Origin: Methylocystis sp. B8
GTDB lineage: Bacteria; Pseudomonadota; Alphaproteobacteria; Rhizobiales; Beijerinckiaceae
Length of the DNA stretch: 64,000 nucleotides
Assembly: GCF_005771425.1 (NCBI RefSeq)
Contig: NZ_VBTZ01000001.1
Span: forward strand, 806,001 to 870,000
Reading direction: 5' to 3'
The translations under genes were made by a program, and so were the position numbers. Under the pieces are notes generated by a model. That model saw nothing but the letters and a program-made list of their open reading frames with translations, did no database searches and was not told where the DNA came from. Shown piece after piece: positions 28,802 to 35,624 of the stretch (positions are counted from its first letter, which is position 1; each line of letters begins with the position of its first letter).

Positions 28802-29491
28802 GTGTCCCTTTTTGACGGCATTCCTTTTTTTGCTGGCCTTGATCCCGCGCGCGGCGAGCAGTTCGCGCGCCAATGCGCGCGCAAACGATACGCCGAACAT
28901 GAATTAGTCCTCGACTTCGACGATCCCTCCACGGACGTTTATTTCATCGTCAGCGGCGACGTTCGAGTTCTAATTCGAACCGCAGCCGGCAAGGAAATGA
29001 TCTTTGGCGACTTCGGACCGGGCAAATTCTTCGGCGAGATGGCGGCGATCGACGGCGCCAAGCGCTCCGCAAACGTAACCGCGCTCACCAATGCGGAACT
29101 CCTGCTGGTGCCGCCAACAGTCTTCAAGGAAATCGTGTTCGGCGAGCCGGAAATCTGCGAGCGGCTGTTACGCTTGCTGACGTCGCGCGTCCGGGAGCTG
29201 AATACCCGCCTCTTCGAACGTTCGGTGCTCGACCTCAAGCATCGCCTTTATTCCGAATTATTGCGCATGTCGGCGCCGCGTAAAGGTTCGCCGGAGCAGT
29301 CGATCGTTTCGCCCCCGCCCTTCCAGCACGATCTCGCCGCCCGGATCGGCTGTCGGCGCGAACAGGTCAGCCGCGAACTCTCTGCGATGATCGACGAGGG
29401 CTTGGCGGAAAAAATCCGTGGCGGACTTGTACTTATACGCCCCTCAGTCCTCGAGAAAAGGGTCCAGGACGCGCTTAACGAAGCCGAATGA
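28802..29491 (+). CDS. Crp/Fnr-family regulator with intact cyclic-nucleotide pocket
   Basis: A 229-residue regulator. The N-terminal cupin covers about 1-120, with the phosphate-binding cassette FFGEMAAIDGAKRSAN at 77-91 (Gly-Glu, Arg-Ser), as in cAMP-binding Crp proteins. A dimerisation helix (LLTSRVRELNTRLFERS) and a winged helix-turn-helix (FQHDLAARIGCRREQVSREL) follow. There are no clustered cysteines for an Fe-S centre as in Fnr. It opens the gene set that ends in a CHASE2 adenylate cyclase, so cAMP is the likely ligand. The GTG/ATG question does not arise: the frame opens with GTG 28802 after a GGGAG site. Confidence 0.92.
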   Translation: MSLFDGIPFFAGLDPARGEQFARQCARKRYAEHELVLDFDDPSTDVYFIVSGDVRVLIRTAAGKEMIFGDFGPGKFFGEMAAIDGAKRSANVTALTNAELLLVPPTVFKEIVFGEPEICERLLRLLTSRVRELNTRLFERSVLDLKHRLYSELLRMSAPRKGSPEQSIVSPPPFQHDLAARIGCRREQVSRELSAMIDEGLAEKIRGGLVLIRPSVLEKRVQDALNEAE

Positions 29492-29593
29492 GGCGTGTGC
29501 GCTCTCGCACAAACGGAGGATGAAGCTCCCGCTAACGTCGTTACAGTTGCCGGAAAGGTGAAAAGCCCCGGCAGGAACGACTGGGAGAGGTTA

Positions 29594-29998
29594 ATGATTC
29601 CCGAACTGACGCCTATCGAGCGTTGCGCCGAGATGGCTGGTTTGCGCAGTTATGAAATCGTTTTGGGCGTGAGCCCGAGCGATAAGCACCAGCGGATGCT
29701 CGCTCGCTATCGGCGAAATCTATCGGTTGACGCGGCCCGCCGCCGACTCGTCGCCGACATCCGTAATGCGGTCAAGATCGGCGCCCCGCGTCGCGCCGCC
29801 GACTTGCTGATCGTGCTGCGCTGGCTGCTCTCGTCCGACGCGTCTTGTGACGGTACGCGAGCCACCTCGCGTCCGCGCCGTCGTGTCTTGTCGGCGGGAC
29901 GCCGCAGAAGCGCGACGCCGTCATCGGCGACTGAAATGAAAGCCGTCGGAGGCGGCGACGTCGTCTATCTCTTCGACGGCGGACGCCGTCGCGGCTAA
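29594..29998 (+). CDS. Unknown 134-residue protein of the Crp-CHASE2 locus
   Basis: A soluble protein starting MIPELTPIERCAEMAGLRSY, with a helical segment DKHQRMLARYRRNLSVDAAR and LLIVLRWLLSSD. A basic, arginine-rich low-complexity region follows, and a final VVYLFDGGRRRG. I do not recognise the family. ATG 29594 has AGAGG upstream; the frame extends up to GTG 29495, next to the Crp stop, so a 167-residue form is possible. Its place between the Crp-like gene and the outer-membrane gene suggests a shared role, but nothing in the sequence defines it. Confidence 0.55.
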   Translation: MIPELTPIERCAEMAGLRSYEIVLGVSPSDKHQRMLARYRRNLSVDAARRRLVADIRNAVKIGAPRRAADLLIVLRWLLSSDASCDGTRATSRPRRRVLSAGRRRSATPSSATEMKAVGGGDVVYLFDGGRRRG

Positions 29999-30243
29999 GC
30001 GCGTTCGACCTGTGGTTTCGCGGCAACACCGATAATGTGTTTTGTCCGCAGCTTCAGGTCGGATTGCAGCGCAGGATGGGGGCAAGTCTTTGTGGAAACA
30101 AGTGAATTCGCGGCGCCGGGCTCGGGCCTGAGCCGCGCGCTAGCTCGCCGCTCGCTTGCCACCCCATTCCGCATGAGTCACCGTTCAATTGACGGTCTGA
30201 CCCTGGCGCGCCGTTATTTCCGATTCTTCGGAGTCTGCCATTG

Positions 30244-31644
30244 ATGCGTTTAAGGAGCTTGCTATCCGTGTTCGCGTGCAGAGCGGCGCCAGCCCTCGCG
30301 GTGGCGCTGCTTGCCGCCTTCGCCCTTTTAGGTCCGGCCTTGGCGCAGGAACCGGCCTTGGCGCAGGAAGACGCTCGCGCCGAGCGGGAGCGCCTCGCGG
30401 CCCATATTCAAAATAATCCGACCGATTATCAGGCGACGTATCGTTACGTTTTGCTTTCGACGGAGGCGCGCGACTACGAGGCGGGAATAGGCGCGCTTGA
30501 GCGTCTGCTAATGTTCAATCCCAACCTCGCTCGCGCCCGCAAGGAACTCGGTTTTCTCTATGCGCGGCTTGGCTCCTATGGGGTCTCGGCCCAGCACTTG
30601 CGCAAAGCGCTCGCCGAGGAGGGGCTCGATCCGGTTCAGGCCGCTCAGATCGAAGCGCAATTGCCGGACATCGAAAAACGCACTCAAGCCAGCAGGCTCT
30701 ACGTGCGAATACACGCCGGTCTGCGTGCACAAACCAACGCGAATTTCTTCCCGACCAATAATCTGCTTCAAGCGGGCGGCGTTGGCGTCGCGTCGACCGC
30801 CTCGCGCCAGGGGGACGTCAACGCCTTCCAGTTGGTGCAGGCCGCCCACGATCTCGATTTTCAGAACGCCCGAGGCGACCAATTTGAAACGCGGGTGACA
30901 GGTTACGCCACCGAACAGTTTCGTCTGCCGCAATATAGCGTCGTCCTGTTCGCGGGCACCGTGGGACCCCGTATTCACATTGCGCCCGATCTCCATCCGG
31001 GTCTGTCGATCAAGCCGTATCTGACGGGCGCGACGTCGATGCTCGGTTCGACCAACTATATCAACGCCGGCGGCGGCGGCGTAAGTTTTGGCGCGCAGGT
31101 CAATCCGGACTTTTGGCTCGAGCCCGGCGCCGAATGGCGCGCGCTCTGGGTCAACCCTCTGCCAAGCGGCTTTGGCTTTCTGCCCACATTGCCGTCGTCA
31201 ACCATCTCGACATTGGCGACCGGCGACGTTGTCACCGGCTATGTGGGCAGCACATACAGGCTGACGGAAATGCTGCGACTCGAGGGTCGAGTCGCCTATT
31301 CCCGCGCCTGGGCTGGCCTTGCTCAACAGTCCTCTAATCAGGTGGACGTTCAAGCGATGATTCGGTTCGAGCTTGATCCGCCGTTCGAAATCATTCCGCG
31401 CAAATGGACCGTGGCGCCTTACGGCCGCTTCACGCATCTTGCCTTTGACGCCGCCAATCCTTTGATCAATCCATTCATTGCGCGACGCGACGCCGCATGG
31501 ATCGGCGGCCTGATGGTCGACTTGCCGATCACCGCCAATTTCGGCTTCGCCGGCAATGTCGAATATGCCCGCAACGGCTCAAATCTGCCGAACTTCAAAA
31601 CTGAGAACTTTTCTGTCTCCTTCGGGCCGACGGCGAAGTTCTGA
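30244..31644 (+). CDS. Outer-membrane beta-barrel protein with N-terminal TPR, Slam-like
   Basis: A 466-residue exported protein. A signal peptide ends near residue 35 at GPALAQ, where an 18-base tandem repeat makes PALAQE twice. Residues about 45-140 are TPR-like helices (ALERLLMFNPNLARARKELG, FLYARLGSYGVSAQHLRKAL). The remainder has alternating amphipathic strands and ends in SVSFGPTAKF, a terminal aromatic typical of BAM substrates. TPR plus barrel is the layout of surface lipoprotein assembly modulators (Slam, DUF560), but membership is unproven. The next gene encodes a secreted FecR-domain protein 12 bases downstream, which could be a client or partner. Confidence 0.8.
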   Translation: MRLRSLLSVFACRAAPALAVALLAAFALLGPALAQEPALAQEDARAERERLAAHIQNNPTDYQATYRYVLLSTEARDYEAGIGALERLLMFNPNLARARKELGFLYARLGSYGVSAQHLRKALAEEGLDPVQAAQIEAQLPDIEKRTQASRLYVRIHAGLRAQTNANFFPTNNLLQAGGVGVASTASRQGDVNAFQLVQAAHDLDFQNARGDQFETRVTGYATEQFRLPQYSVVLFAGTVGPRIHIAPDLHPGLSIKPYLTGATSMLGSTNYINAGGGGVSFGAQVNPDFWLEPGAEWRALWVNPLPSGFGFLPTLPSSTISTLATGDVVTGYVGSTYRLTEMLRLEGRVAYSRAWAGLAQQSSNQVDVQAMIRFELDPPFEIIPRKWTVAPYGRFTHLAFDAANPLINPFIARRDAAWIGGLMVDLPITANFGFAGNVEYARNGSNLPNFKTENFSVSFGPTAKF

Positions 31645-31656
31645 CGGAGGCGATCG

Positions 31657-32505
31657 ATGAGAAAGCTCCTCTCGGCCGTAACAATCGCTCTTACGCTCAT
31701 CGCAGCGCCGGCATTCGCCGAGAAGGTCGGAAACGTCGGAGCGGTCAATCAATCGGCGCATGGCACCCCGCCAGGCGCGGCGAAGCGCTCGCTTTCCGTC
31801 GGCCTTGGCGTCCAGAAACGTGAACGCATCGAGACGAGTCCGGAGGGCAGCGCGCAGATCGTCTTCAACGATACGTCAACGATGACCGTTGGACGCAACA
31901 GCGCCGTCACTGTCGATGATTTCGTCTATTCCGGTGGTCGCGGGCAACAGGGCGTGTCGCTCGCGAAAGGCGTGATGCGCTTTGTCGGCGGCGGCGTCAG
32001 CCACGAAGGCGGCGCGCGGCTTCGGACGCCGACGGCGTCGATCGGCGTGCGCGGCGGAACCGCGATGGTCCAAGTTACTTCAGCCGGCACGCTCGTCGTG
32101 CATCAATATGGCGTCACCCAGGTTGGGGGACAGACTCTCACGCAGGCCGGGTATGGCGTGTTTGTTTCAAACAACGGACAAGTGTCGGAGCCTTTCCTCG
32201 TTCCACCGGAAACAATTGCTCAAATGATCGCGGCTCTGGAGAGCGGGAAAAAGCAGCATGGCGGCGCCAAGCACACGCCGACGAGCGAAGAAGCGAATCT
32301 CATGCTCGGCGGAGCGCCTCCTCAGAATATCGTGAGTTCGCCGGGCCTCGACGCTCTCGGCCCGATGTGGGCCGGCAACGCGATCGTGCAGAGCCAAACC
32401 AATGTCCAAAATCAGCCCGCTACAACTCCGGCGCCGGTGGTTCAGCAGCAAAGCGTCGATCCTACGCCTCCTCCTCCGGATCCTCCCTACTGCCACGGCC
32501 ATTGA
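31657..32505 (+). CDS. Secreted FecR-domain protein
   Basis: A 282-residue protein with a signal peptide (cleavage near ALTLIAAPAFA, residue 21). The FecR domain spans about residues 45-165: LGVQKRERIETSPEGSAQIV, then MTVGRNSAVTVDDFVY and LRTPTASIGVRGGTAMVQV, the usual signature. The C-terminus is proline- and glutamine-rich and ends PYCHGH, a possible metal site. There is no transmembrane helix, so unlike classical FecR it cannot itself contact a sigma factor and is probably periplasmic. Similar FecR proteins often neighbour CHASE2 cyclases. It is tightly spaced after the barrel gene, with the cyclase gene 137 bases downstream. Confidence 0.88.
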   Translation: MRKLLSAVTIALTLIAAPAFAEKVGNVGAVNQSAHGTPPGAAKRSLSVGLGVQKRERIETSPEGSAQIVFNDTSTMTVGRNSAVTVDDFVYSGGRGQQGVSLAKGVMRFVGGGVSHEGGARLRTPTASIGVRGGTAMVQVTSAGTLVVHQYGVTQVGGQTLTQAGYGVFVSNNGQVSEPFLVPPETIAQMIAALESGKKQHGGAKHTPTSEEANLMLGGAPPQNIVSSPGLDALGPMWAGNAIVQSQTNVQNQPATTPAPVVQQQSVDPTPPPPDPPYCHGH

Positions 32506-32642
32506 CCTGGATTGTAGCGGCCGAGTCGCGGCCCGCGTTGGGGTTCTGATGGTTGCGCTGGAAGGACCGGCTAGTTAGTGCTGCCTCGTCGTAGCCTCAC
32601 CCGTATAAGGGGGCGGCGGCGTGACCGCCATTTGAGGTGCAG

Positions 32643-34859
32643 ATGTTGAAACGGCGTCGCGCCTATCTACTCGCGCTTCTCGCCGCCGCGGCTCTCGTTC
32701 TCCCCTGGGGCCTCGTTCAGCCTCGAGCGCTCGACGATCTGCGCAACTTCGTCTTCGACAGCTTTCAGCGCCTCGCGCCGCGCGCCTATGATCCGGAGGC
32801 GCCGACGCGCGTCGTCGGCGTCGATGAGAAAAGCCTCAAAGCTTATGGGCAATGGCCTTGGCCGCGCGCGCGACTGGCCGAACTCGTCGACCGGCTGCGC
32901 GAGTTGGGCGCGGCCTCCATCGCCTTCGACTTCATTTTCGCGGAGGCCGATCGCGCCGGAGCCTCCCAGCTCGTCGATGTGATTCCCGACGCGCGCGCCC
33001 GCGCCGAGGTGTCGAGGCTCGTCGCCAAAACGCCGAGCGGCGATCAGATTTTCGCTCAGGCGTTGACGCAGGCGCCGGCGACGCTCGGCGTGACGCTGAC
33101 GGACTCGGTTGTCGCGCCGCTGCCGGCGAAGTCGGGAATAGTAATTGCCGGCGACGATCCGGCGCCCTTCCTTGTCGCTTTCGCCGGCGCGGTCGGCCCC
33201 GAGCGGCGCCTCGTTGACGCCGCGCAGGGGCTTGGGGCCACGAATTGGCTGCCCGATCGCGATCAGGTCGTTCGCCGGGTGCCGCTCGTGACGCGCGCCG
33301 GCGACGTTCTCGTGCCATCGCTGGCGCTTGAGGCTTTACGCATCGCGCAGGGCGAACAGGCCATCGTCATCCGCTCTTCGAACGCCAGCGGCCAAACGGC
33401 ATTCGGCAAGCAAACGGGCGTGAACGCCGTAAAGGTCGGCGCATTCGAAATTGAAACCGGCCCCAGCGCAGAGGTTCGCCCGCGCTATTCGCATAGCGCC
33501 GCGGCGCGAGACATTTCCGCGAAGGATGTGCTCGAGGGTCGCGTGGGACGCGACGAAATCGATGGACGCATCATTTTCGTCGGCGCGCTGGCGACGGGAC
33601 TTGGCGACGTCCGCGCGACGCCTCTGGAGCCGGTCGTCCCTGGCGTCGACGTGCATGCGCAGATCGTCGAGTCGATCGCTTCGGGCGCGCTGCTTGCGCG
33701 ACCGGACTGGGCGCCGGGACTCGAATTCGTCGTCGCCGCGCTCGCCTTCCTACTGATTATGGGCCTGCTCTATGTTGCGCCGCCGCTTGCTTCGGCGGCC
33801 GTCGCGCCGCTCGCCGTCATTGGCCTCTTCGCTGGAGCTTTCTATCTGTTCGATCGTCGCGGGGTTCTTCTTGATCCGGCCTATCCGAGCCTCGCCATCA
33901 TCGGCGGCTATCTCTTCGGCGCCGTGACGCTCTGGCGCGCTGAAACGTCGGCGCGCCGCCACGTGCGGCAGGCCTTCGGCAAATTCGTCGCGCCCGCCGT
34001 CGTCGATCGACTCGCCGAACATCCTGAGCGCCTGGTGCTCGGCGGCGAGACGCGCGAATTGACGGTGCTCTTTTCCGACCTGCGCAATTTTTCCCGCATT
34101 TCGGAGGGCATGAGCGCGCGCGAACTCACGCAGTTCATGAACGACTATCTGACGCCGATGACCGACGCCATTCTCGAACAGGAGGGCACTGTCGACAAAT
34201 ATATGGGCGACGCGGTGCTCGCCTTCTGGAACGCGCCGCTCGACATCGACGACCACCCGCGGAGGGCGGTTCGGGCCGCCCTGATGATGCGCGCGGCGCT
34301 CATGGATCTCAACAGGCGCCGCGCCGAGGCCGCGGCGGCGGCTGGCCGCGAGGCTCAGCCGGCGGCCATGGGCCTCGGACTCCATCTCGGGCCTTGCAGC
34401 GTCGGCAATATGGGATCGATCCGCCGCTTCGACTATTCGATCCTCGGCGACACGGTGAACCTCGCGTCGCGGCTGGAGGGGGCGAGCAAGGCCTTTCAGA
34501 CGGATATTGTGGCGTCCAGCGCCGTGCGGGACGCGGTGCCCGATTTCGCCTGGATTGATCTTGGGTGGGTCCGCGTTCTTGGCAAAACCGAGGCGACTCA
34601 AGTTTTTGCGTTGGCCGGCGACGGCGGTGCGGCGGGTTCCGATTCGTATGTGCGATGGCGCAAGGCGCATGACCTCATGCGCGAGGACTATGAATCAGGC
34701 CAATTCGAGGTCGCCGCCGAGCGCGCTTCGACATTGGCCCGGTCGGTTCCCGAACCGTGGCCCGCGCTCTATGTCGCTTTGGAGGAACGATATCTGACGC
34801 TGGCGCGGGAAGGTTTGCAGGATAACTGGTCTTCGGTATGGAATCTTTCGAGCAAGTGA
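32643..34859 (+). CDS. CHASE2-domain class III adenylate cyclase
   Basis: A 738-residue membrane protein: one N-terminal helix (LLALLAAAALVLPWGL), a periplasmic CHASE2 sensor (about 30-355, with VVGVDEKSLKAYGQWPWPR), three helices (about 365-430), then a cytoplasmic class III cyclase. The cyclase has both metal aspartates (VLFSDLRNFSR near 478, VDKYMGDAVLAFW near 517), the purine-selecting lysine of VDKY, and the transition-state pair N and R in GDTVNLASRLEG near 602. It should make cAMP. The ATG at 32643 has GAGGTG upstream. The signal sensed outside is unknown; the adjacent FecR and barrel proteins are candidates to supply it. Confidence 0.93.
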   Translation: MLKRRRAYLLALLAAAALVLPWGLVQPRALDDLRNFVFDSFQRLAPRAYDPEAPTRVVGVDEKSLKAYGQWPWPRARLAELVDRLRELGAASIAFDFIFAEADRAGASQLVDVIPDARARAEVSRLVAKTPSGDQIFAQALTQAPATLGVTLTDSVVAPLPAKSGIVIAGDDPAPFLVAFAGAVGPERRLVDAAQGLGATNWLPDRDQVVRRVPLVTRAGDVLVPSLALEALRIAQGEQAIVIRSSNASGQTAFGKQTGVNAVKVGAFEIETGPSAEVRPRYSHSAAARDISAKDVLEGRVGRDEIDGRIIFVGALATGLGDVRATPLEPVVPGVDVHAQIVESIASGALLARPDWAPGLEFVVAALAFLLIMGLLYVAPPLASAAVAPLAVIGLFAGAFYLFDRRGVLLDPAYPSLAIIGGYLFGAVTLWRAETSARRHVRQAFGKFVAPAVVDRLAEHPERLVLGGETRELTVLFSDLRNFSRISEGMSARELTQFMNDYLTPMTDAILEQEGTVDKYMGDAVLAFWNAPLDIDDHPRRAVRAALMMRAALMDLNRRRAEAAAAAGREAQPAAMGLGLHLGPCSVGNMGSIRRFDYSILGDTVNLASRLEGASKAFQTDIVASSAVRDAVPDFAWIDLGWVRVLGKTEATQVFALAGDGGAAGSDSYVRWRKAHDLMREDYESGQFEVAAERASTLARSVPEPWPALYVALEERYLTLAREGLQDNWSSVWNLSSK

Positions 34860-34937: not shown

Positions 34938-35624
34938 ATGATCTCAAATCCGATACAGACTTATTGGGGCCTGATAGCATCTCGTCACGACCCCGACGCT
35001 TTTGCGGTCCTCGATACCGCCTACCGCGAATCCCAGCGCGGATATCATGATTGGAGCCATATCGGCGATCTGCTGGCGAAGCTCGATTACTTTAAGGCGC
35101 TCGCCGTACGGCCAGACCTGATCGCCGCGGCAATCTTCTGGCACGATGTCGTCTATGTGACCCGCGACAGCGAAGGTCTGCTTCGCCCCGACGCTGAAAA
35201 CGTCCGCGCCAGCGCAGCGCTCTTTGAGAGTCACGCCAAGTTCAACGAAACGGATGCGGCGGCCATTCATGATTTGATCATGGCGACAGCCGATCATCTC
35301 GATGCGCGCGCGACGATCGAGCGCTATCCAGGTTTTACGAACGATCTCGATCTTTTTCTTGATCTCGATCTCTCCTCGCTCGGCGCGCCTTGGCCCGCAT
35401 TCGAGCAAAATCTTGAGCGGCTTCGTTTCGAATACGCCTGGGTGCCGGAGCCGCTTTTTTGCCTCGGACGACTGCAGATGATCGACACTTTCGCCGCGCG
35501 CGGAGATGCGCTCTACAGACGCGACGAGACCAGAAAGCTTTGGAATAACCGCGCACATGAGAACCTTGCGCGCGCCCAGGAGGAATTGCGCCGGGAAGTC
35601 GCGCGGCTTGCCTCGTCGGCCTAG
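34938..35624 (+). CDS. HD-domain metal-dependent phosphohydrolase, COG4339-like
   Basis: A 228-residue soluble protein. The HD-type metal motif is seen as YHDWSHI near residue 36, AIFWHDVVY near 66 and ATADHLD near 116. The C-terminal half is helical, with AWVPEPLFCLGRLQMIDT. The family (predicted HD superfamily hydrolases) has no established substrate. It follows the cyclase by 78 bases on the same strand; a link to the cAMP locus is possible but not shown. Confidence 0.8.
   Translation: MISNPIQTYWGLIASRHDPDAFAVLDTAYRESQRGYHDWSHIGDLLAKLDYFKALAVRPDLIAAAIFWHDVVYVTRDSEGLLRPDAENVRASAALFESHAKFNETDAAAIHDLIMATADHLDARATIERYPGFTNDLDLFLDLDLSSLGAPWPAFEQNLERLRFEYAWVPEPLFCLGRLQMIDTFAARGDALYRRDETRKLWNNRAHENLARAQEELRREVARLASSA

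Follow-up and report, generated by a model that had tools for sequence, protein, structure and literature searches.

We analyzed a window of 64,000 nucleotides from Methylocystis sp. B8 (contig NZ_VBTZ01000001.1, positions 806,001 to 870,000 of the forward strand), in which a candidate envelope-sensing locus for cyclic AMP (cAMP) signalling was found on the + strand. It carries, in this order, crp, a small conserved gene, a gene for a predicted outer-membrane protein with TPR repeats and a barrel (hereafter TPR-barrel), fecR and a CHASE2 cyclase gene (Table 1). An earlier sequence-only reading, made without database searches, had listed five same-strand genes here, and the positions, strand and Pfam domains of all five agreed with it. 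A 243 bp gap divides crp and the small gene from the TPR-barrel, fecR and cyclase genes, so that a single transcript is not evident. The host belongs to Methylocystis, and the barrel of its named relatives is up to 96% identical. In the whole genome we counted one CHASE2 protein, four class III cyclases, eight cyclic nucleotide monophosphate (cNMP)-binding proteins and two FecR proteins.

Table 1. Features of the candidate cAMP-sensing locus, with positions in the window
Feature	Position	Strand	Evidence
crp, Crp/Fnr-family regulator, 229 amino acids	28802..29491	+	PF00027 E 4e-20, PF13545 E 2e-9
Palindrome TGTGCGCTCTCGCACA, likely Crp operator	29496..29511	.	Conserved arms behind crp
Small conserved protein gene, probable ATG start revised from 29495	29588..29998	+	Conservation in congeners; no Pfam match
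Predicted TPR + 14-strand outer-membrane barrel, Slam (type XI secretion) homologue	30241..31644	+	TPR_9, signal peptide, AlphaFold2, hhalign
Predicted secreted FecR-domain protein, short form, variable tail	31657..32505	+	PF04773 E 5e-13
CHASE2 class III adenylate/guanylate cyclase	32637..34859	+	PF05226 E 2e-55, PF00211 E 4e-16
Sixth gene, 228 amino acids, HD-like by eye	34938..35624	+	Synteny; no Pfam or NCBIfam match

The cyclase, which is the sole CHASE2 protein of the genome, has a complete set of catalytic residues (D481, D525, K521, S601, N608 and R612). The metal-binding Asp pair, the Lys plus Thr/Ser/Asp pair and the Asn-Arg pair of class III cyclases are all present, and the same residues are found in CyaK of Sinorhizobium meliloti. 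Its earlier designation as a CHASE2 cyclase with all catalytic residues was thus upheld by both the Pfam domains and the full residue set.

The TPR-barrel protein is homologous to Slam of the type XI secretion system (T11SS) over its whole length. Its AlphaFold2 model has a predicted local distance difference test (pLDDT) score of 85 and shows TPR helices together with 14 long strands. Profile comparison by hhalign gave a probability of 100 against PF04575 proteins (E 6.5e-40, 381 columns) and of 99.4 against seven strong Slams only (E 1.5e-21). The barrel part alone reached 97.7 against the strong Slams (E 1.4e-12), and a porin control in the same comparison scored 6.5-7.7. We regard the protein as a distant Slam homologue and not as a called family member, because the Pfam Slam model does not recognise it: no match above the curated PF04575 threshold was obtained for the window barrel or in its own genome, and an NCBIfam scan of the barrel gave no match. 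One relative (L065) reaches 22.5 bits in PF04575, where the threshold is 22. A fold search against the PDB returned generic barrels and BcsC/PelB for the TPR-barrel; Slam was not among the entries listed, an outcome that speaks neither for nor against it. The window protein shares with Slam/T11SS proteins (DUF560, PF04575; PMC8406197, PMC12282271) an N-terminal TPR region and a 14-strand barrel, whereas the partner differs, being a host-binding lipoprotein in those systems and here a FecR protein beside a cyclase, without a cargo barrel. In another Methylocystis genome (G017, L042), the TPR-barrel and cyclase genes are both in pieces with frame changes, which may reflect sequencing error or decay.

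Further examination of the FecR protein revealed an N-terminal signal peptide and, by eye, no lipobox or further membrane segment, in line with its earlier description as secreted and without a membrane anchor. The classical FecR anti-sigma layout, with a cytoplasmic N-terminus followed by a transmembrane helix, was not seen by eye in this protein. In related loci, long FecR proteins of at least 550 codons (stop to stop) were found at 24 loci, and 23 of them share a C-terminal domain that was seen in no short FecR. The NCBIfam model 'Slam-dependent surface lipoprotein' matched seven of eight long FecRs, all below the cut-off (E 2e-4 to 2e-11); two short FecRs gave no match. FecRs of Shinella and Paracoccus also match it. 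A profile of the C-terminal domain searched against the PDB gave NHBA, fHbp and LbpB (best E 2.5e-5), and its AlphaFold2 model (pLDDT 90) matched NHBA (Z 16.9, root-mean-square deviation 2.6 over 147) as well as TbpB and fHbp. NHBA is a Slam-dependent surface protein or closely related to one. The other proteins matched by this domain likewise depend on Slam for their surface location or are near relatives of proteins that do (PMC8406197). Because of these matches to NHBA, TbpB and fHbp, the arrangement in the relatives can be read as a Slam homologue, then a FecR with a predicted cargo domain, and often then a CHASE2 cyclase; as in Slam/T11SS loci, the product of the neighbouring gene ends in a TbpB/fHbp/NHBA-type barrel. 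Methylocystis and Afipia FecRs have no cargo domain and carry low-complexity tails. The FecR tail differs widely among close Methylocystis species, with a short, Pro-rich form at one end of the range and long Gly/His-rich repeats at the other. At another locus (L062, 185-11473), an open reading frame (ORF) that spans about 3760 codons and matches FecR ends immediately before a CHASE2 cyclase gene; it possibly encodes a giant surface protein that takes the position of FecR. We found the link of a Slam-like barrel with FecR described nowhere. No paper joining FecR with DUF560 or 'surface lipoprotein assembly modifier' was found in the open-licence literature, a scope that makes this silence weak evidence, and the main text of two T11SS papers mentions neither FecR nor cyclases (PMC8406197, PMC12282271).

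The same neighbourhood recurs well beyond the genus. A profile search with the TPR-barrel gave 80 named loci, in 71 of which FecR directly follows the TPR-barrel and in 32 of which a CHASE2 cyclase lies downstream. In a class-wide sample, FecR was found no more than 1.5 kb beyond the barrel at 19 of 28 loci, compared with none of 16 loci for an OprB porin control of the same size. It seems that the TPR-barrel/fecR pair is adjacent across Alphaproteobacteria and has been gained or lost together. In an independent phylum-wide search that began with the Pfam Slam model and made no use of the window, 11 of the 30 loci examined carry FecR, a CHASE2 cyclase or both next to the Slam-family gene. Three-gene modules (TPR-barrel, fecR and cyclase) recur in Methylocystis, Methylosinus, Rhodopseudomonas, Bradyrhizobium, Shinella and Paracoccus, those of the last two genera being carried on replicons. 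Of 13 loci from other families of the order, nine have a FecR match at most about 7 kb from the CHASE2 cyclase or in the neighbouring ORF, in varied orientations. Judged by gene neighbourhoods, Crp stands outside this wider TPR-barrel/FecR/CHASE2 association. Afipia and its relatives (L093-L109) have the pair without a cyclase, in some cases beside a glycosyltransferase or glycerol-3-phosphate dehydrogenase gene. The FecR/CHASE2 modules on Shinella and Ensifer plasmids (L071, 10799-15188; L076, 1-8004) adjoin NHLP-type bacteriocin export genes.

Co-occurrence of the five genes in order had been proposed as a check, and about 22 Methylocystis genomes do keep the whole series: an endo gene on the - strand, crp, the small gene, TPR-barrel, fecR, cyclase and the sixth gene. 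In three genomes (G003, G008 and G013), the sixth gene directly follows crp, and the small gene, TPR-barrel, fecR and cyclase are all missing. Since these three form one clade in a flanking-gene tree (with low support, 0.49, for the node that nests them) and the module is present in the outgroup, loss of the module would be the simpler reading. Only TPR-barrel and fecR are missing in one further genome (G002, L032), which retains crp, the small gene, the cyclase and the sixth gene, and the same four genes stand together without the pair at a locus of another genus (L240). In view of these two cases, the locus appears to consist of two sub-units: (A) crp, small gene, cyclase and sixth gene, and (B) the TPR-barrel/fecR pair, which fits into the former. 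In one genome (G007), the cyclase is accompanied by two FecR genes, far from crp. The sequence-only reading had treated everything as one locus. For TPR-barrel, FecR and the CHASE2 cyclase this still stands, as they form a recurring module; it does not hold for crp, which like the sixth gene outlasts module loss and stands beside the module in just two genera, Methylocystis and a sister genus, and otherwise intact crp-cyclase clusters exist without TPR-barrel and fecR.

The small gene, called an unknown protein before, is real and fast-evolving (45-72% in most congeners) and has no Pfam match; its start needed correction. Conservation in congeners begins mostly at residue 28-34, and translation therefore probably starts at the ATG at 29588 and not at 29495. 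In the sister genus, it adjoins the Crp and CHASE2 cyclase genes. Almost every genome that has the module keeps the sixth gene in synteny, as do the genomes that lost the module, and on this basis the gene belongs to the block. A role as a phosphodiesterase was considered for it and set aside, as its product is HD-like by eye alone and gave no Pfam, NCBIfam or PDB match.

Circuits of this kind are already known. In S. meliloti, the CHASE2 cyclases CyaD1, CyaD2 and CyaK act upstream of Clr, a regulator of the Crp family, and the outer-membrane protein NsrA is required to activate these cyclases and for signal perception (PMC7529298, PMC13001267). On pSymB, the sole CHASE2 cyclase gene of the replicon (cyaK) is immediately preceded by an ORF for 1219 amino acids, with a FecR domain (85-179), TPR repeats (250-606) and a C-terminal region. 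We take SMb20775 to be the locus tag of NsrA, and no paper giving the tag was found. Since the C-terminal region agrees with the NsrA barrel published at residues 600-1200 (PMC7529298), we take this putative FecR-TPR-barrel fusion to be NsrA. A further paper cites the NsrA study for extracytoplasmic function (ECF)-type modules that inhibit a transmembrane cAMP enzyme (PMC9239204). The genes clr, cyaD1, SMc02177 (FecR) and SMc02178 are numbered consecutively, and a published account places SMc02178 close to cyaD1 and clr (PMC5498481). Both NsrA-CyaK-Clr and the window thus have FecR, TPR and outer-membrane barrel parts beside a CHASE2 cyclase, together with a Crp-family regulator. In NsrA, however, the FecR, TPR and barrel parts are fused in one 1219-amino acid protein with a much larger barrel, whereas the window has two proteins and a 14-strand Slam-type barrel. 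The Clr site (TGTT-N8-AACA) also differs from the candidate site in the window (TGTG-N8-CACA type), and S. meliloti is a legume symbiont, whereas the host here is a methanotroph for which no plant signal is known.

In Campylobacterota, clusters of CHASE2 cyclase, FecR, TPR and phosphodiesterase genes have been reported (PMC9239204). Compared by description and not by sequence, they resemble the window in joining CHASE2 cyclase, FecR and TPR genes but contain a cAMP phosphodiesterase, with no adjacent Crp described. The Burkholderia LysM-FecR/CHASE2 histidine kinase operon (PMC5192318) likewise has FecR beside a CHASE2 sensor; its output is a two-component one, and the operon has no TPR-barrel. 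The sequence-only reading had held that no described system combines these parts, which is not the case given the S. meliloti and Campylobacterota systems. Because these have been described, the circuit is of a known kind, and the present locus is set apart by its split architecture, its Slam-type barrel and its host, a methanotroph.

On balance, we favor, with moderate confidence, the reading that the locus encodes a cAMP sensor of the NsrA/CyaK/Clr kind that links the envelope to the cytoplasm, with the outer-membrane part divided between two proteins. This builds on what can be read from the sequences, namely the parts and their homologies, the recurrent adjacency, the one genome that has lost TPR-barrel and fecR together, the intact catalytic residues and the conserved palindrome; we infer the membrane placement, the contact between FecR and CHASE2, the sign of control, and the nucleotide response and binding site of Crp. 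The Slam-homologous TPR-barrel would sit in the outer membrane and hold or pass FecR. The former proposal that the barrel exports or positions FecR gains real support from the Slam homology and from the cargo domain on the FecRs of relatives, a domain that the window FecR lacks. In the periplasm, the FecR domain would act on the CHASE2 domain of the cyclase, either by inhibition that a signal releases or by activation. The cyclase would then make cAMP, and cAMP-bound Crp may bind the palindrome behind its own gene and tune the module. A signal flow from FecR to CHASE2 to Crp, as originally suggested, has a precedent in the genetics of S. meliloti, where NsrA acts through CyaK, CyaD1 and CyaD2 on Clr.

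Several observations weigh against this reading. The gene crp persists where the module is missing. Its product has L/N at the positions of T127/S128 in E. coli CRP, which are cAMP contacts there, and accordingly lacks the 140-TT nucleotide contact of Clr. Besides the cyclase of this locus, the genome encodes three more of class III. No FecR could be detected in Nitrobacter-type loci (L140, L141, L143, L144 and L147), where the cyclase directly follows the TPR-barrel, and 36 loci with the TPR-barrel/FecR pair and enough room to show a cyclase have none nearby. Pfam and NCBIfam find no cargo barrel in the window FecR, and export by the Slam-like barrel is therefore not implied for this copy. 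The assignment of the pSymB protein to NsrA draws on its features and its place on the replicon rather than on a locus tag, and the S. meliloti FecR protein SMc02177 was dispensable for signal perception in the assay used (PMC5498481).

The part played by Crp deserves separate consideration. By sequence comparison, the protein keeps the G-E...R-S nucleotide motif and the RE-x-V-x-R recognition helix; in a PDB search the Clr structure 7PZA was not its top match. The palindrome has the form TGTGCG-N4-CGCACA, with conserved arms and a variable centre. It is found behind crp in most Methylocystis, at the sister-genus locus and even in two genomes from which the module has been lost; in all 16 crp loci of other genera it is missing behind crp, and two of these have a different site upstream. 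All crp genes followed by it either adjoin the module or, judging from the tree, used to adjoin it. Because a conserved two-fold site of the TGTG-N8-CACA type adjoins a crp gene whose product has this recognition helix, the palindrome is most simply a likely Crp operator. If the small gene is read from 29495, its first codons overlap the palindrome. Among other candidate sites, the exact Clr box was no more frequent in the window than by chance, and the count of canonical TGTGA-N6-TCACA sites with two mismatches allowed was near chance, only the site at 29496 proving conserved across genomes. An intrinsic terminator was also rejected, as no T run follows the palindrome and the region folds no better than shuffled sequences; terminator and promoter scans were near chance. 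Three further TGTGC-N6-GCACA sites lie elsewhere in the same genome (L218, L219 and L220, each at 1501), and no regulon was evident among the ORFs near them.

It is conceivable, with a chance somewhat short of even, that Crp is not a dedicated reader of this cyclase but a general regulator inherited within the family, its position being a neutral relic and its cAMP coming from any cyclase. Such a role would be compatible with the favored NsrA-like sensor up to the cyclase. Orthologs with 52-68% identity were found in 33 of 60 genomes of the family, across many genera and mostly not beside a CHASE2 cyclase; the gene was kept by the Methylocystis clade that lost the module; and the genome offers four class III cyclases and eight cNMP-binding proteins. 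What argues against it is the conserved palindrome, which in two genera separates crp from the module and is missing from all 16 crp loci of other genera.

According to another, rather unlikely explanation, the system senses the state of export: FecR would be cargo of the Slam-like barrel and would leave the periplasm as long as export runs, blocked export would keep it there and change cyclase activity, and cAMP would report on the secretion channel or the outer membrane. The Slam-cargo barrel on 23 of 24 long FecRs, with its NHBA, TbpB and fHbp matches and its place directly behind a Slam homologue, speaks for this idea, but short FecRs such as that of the window lack the barrel, and the chain beside cyaK, in which FecR and barrel are fused, argues for holding rather than secreting. 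Finally, the TPR-barrel and FecR might be a separate surface or export pair that is a frequent neighbour by chance of an independent Crp-cyclase circuit, as crp, small gene, cyclase and sixth gene occurring without the pair and the pair occurring without a cyclase beside metabolic genes in Afipia and others would allow, but this is improbable given the three-gene modules in six genera, the FecR-CHASE2 and Slam-CHASE2 adjacency across the phylum and the FecR-TPR-barrel fusion adjoining cyaK.

Returning to the favored sensor of the NsrA/CyaK/Clr kind, its wider setting may be a branch of the Slam family with a FecR signalling protein as cargo or partner and often a CHASE2 cyclase as output, widespread in Proteobacteria and with NsrA as its fused counterpart; we consider the chances for this about evenly balanced. 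If it is true, a secretion-type channel would serve as the outer-membrane half of a second-messenger receptor. To our knowledge, CHASE2 is an orphan sensor domain whose neighbours are known but whose ligand and cross-envelope signal route are not. If a Slam-type barrel delivers FecR to CHASE2, this would provide a testable physical path from the cell surface to cAMP, partly explain why FecR genes adjoin CHASE2 genes, and give a signalling job to non-classical branches of type XI secretion. It would also place the symbiosis receptor of S. meliloti in a much wider, mostly non-symbiotic family.

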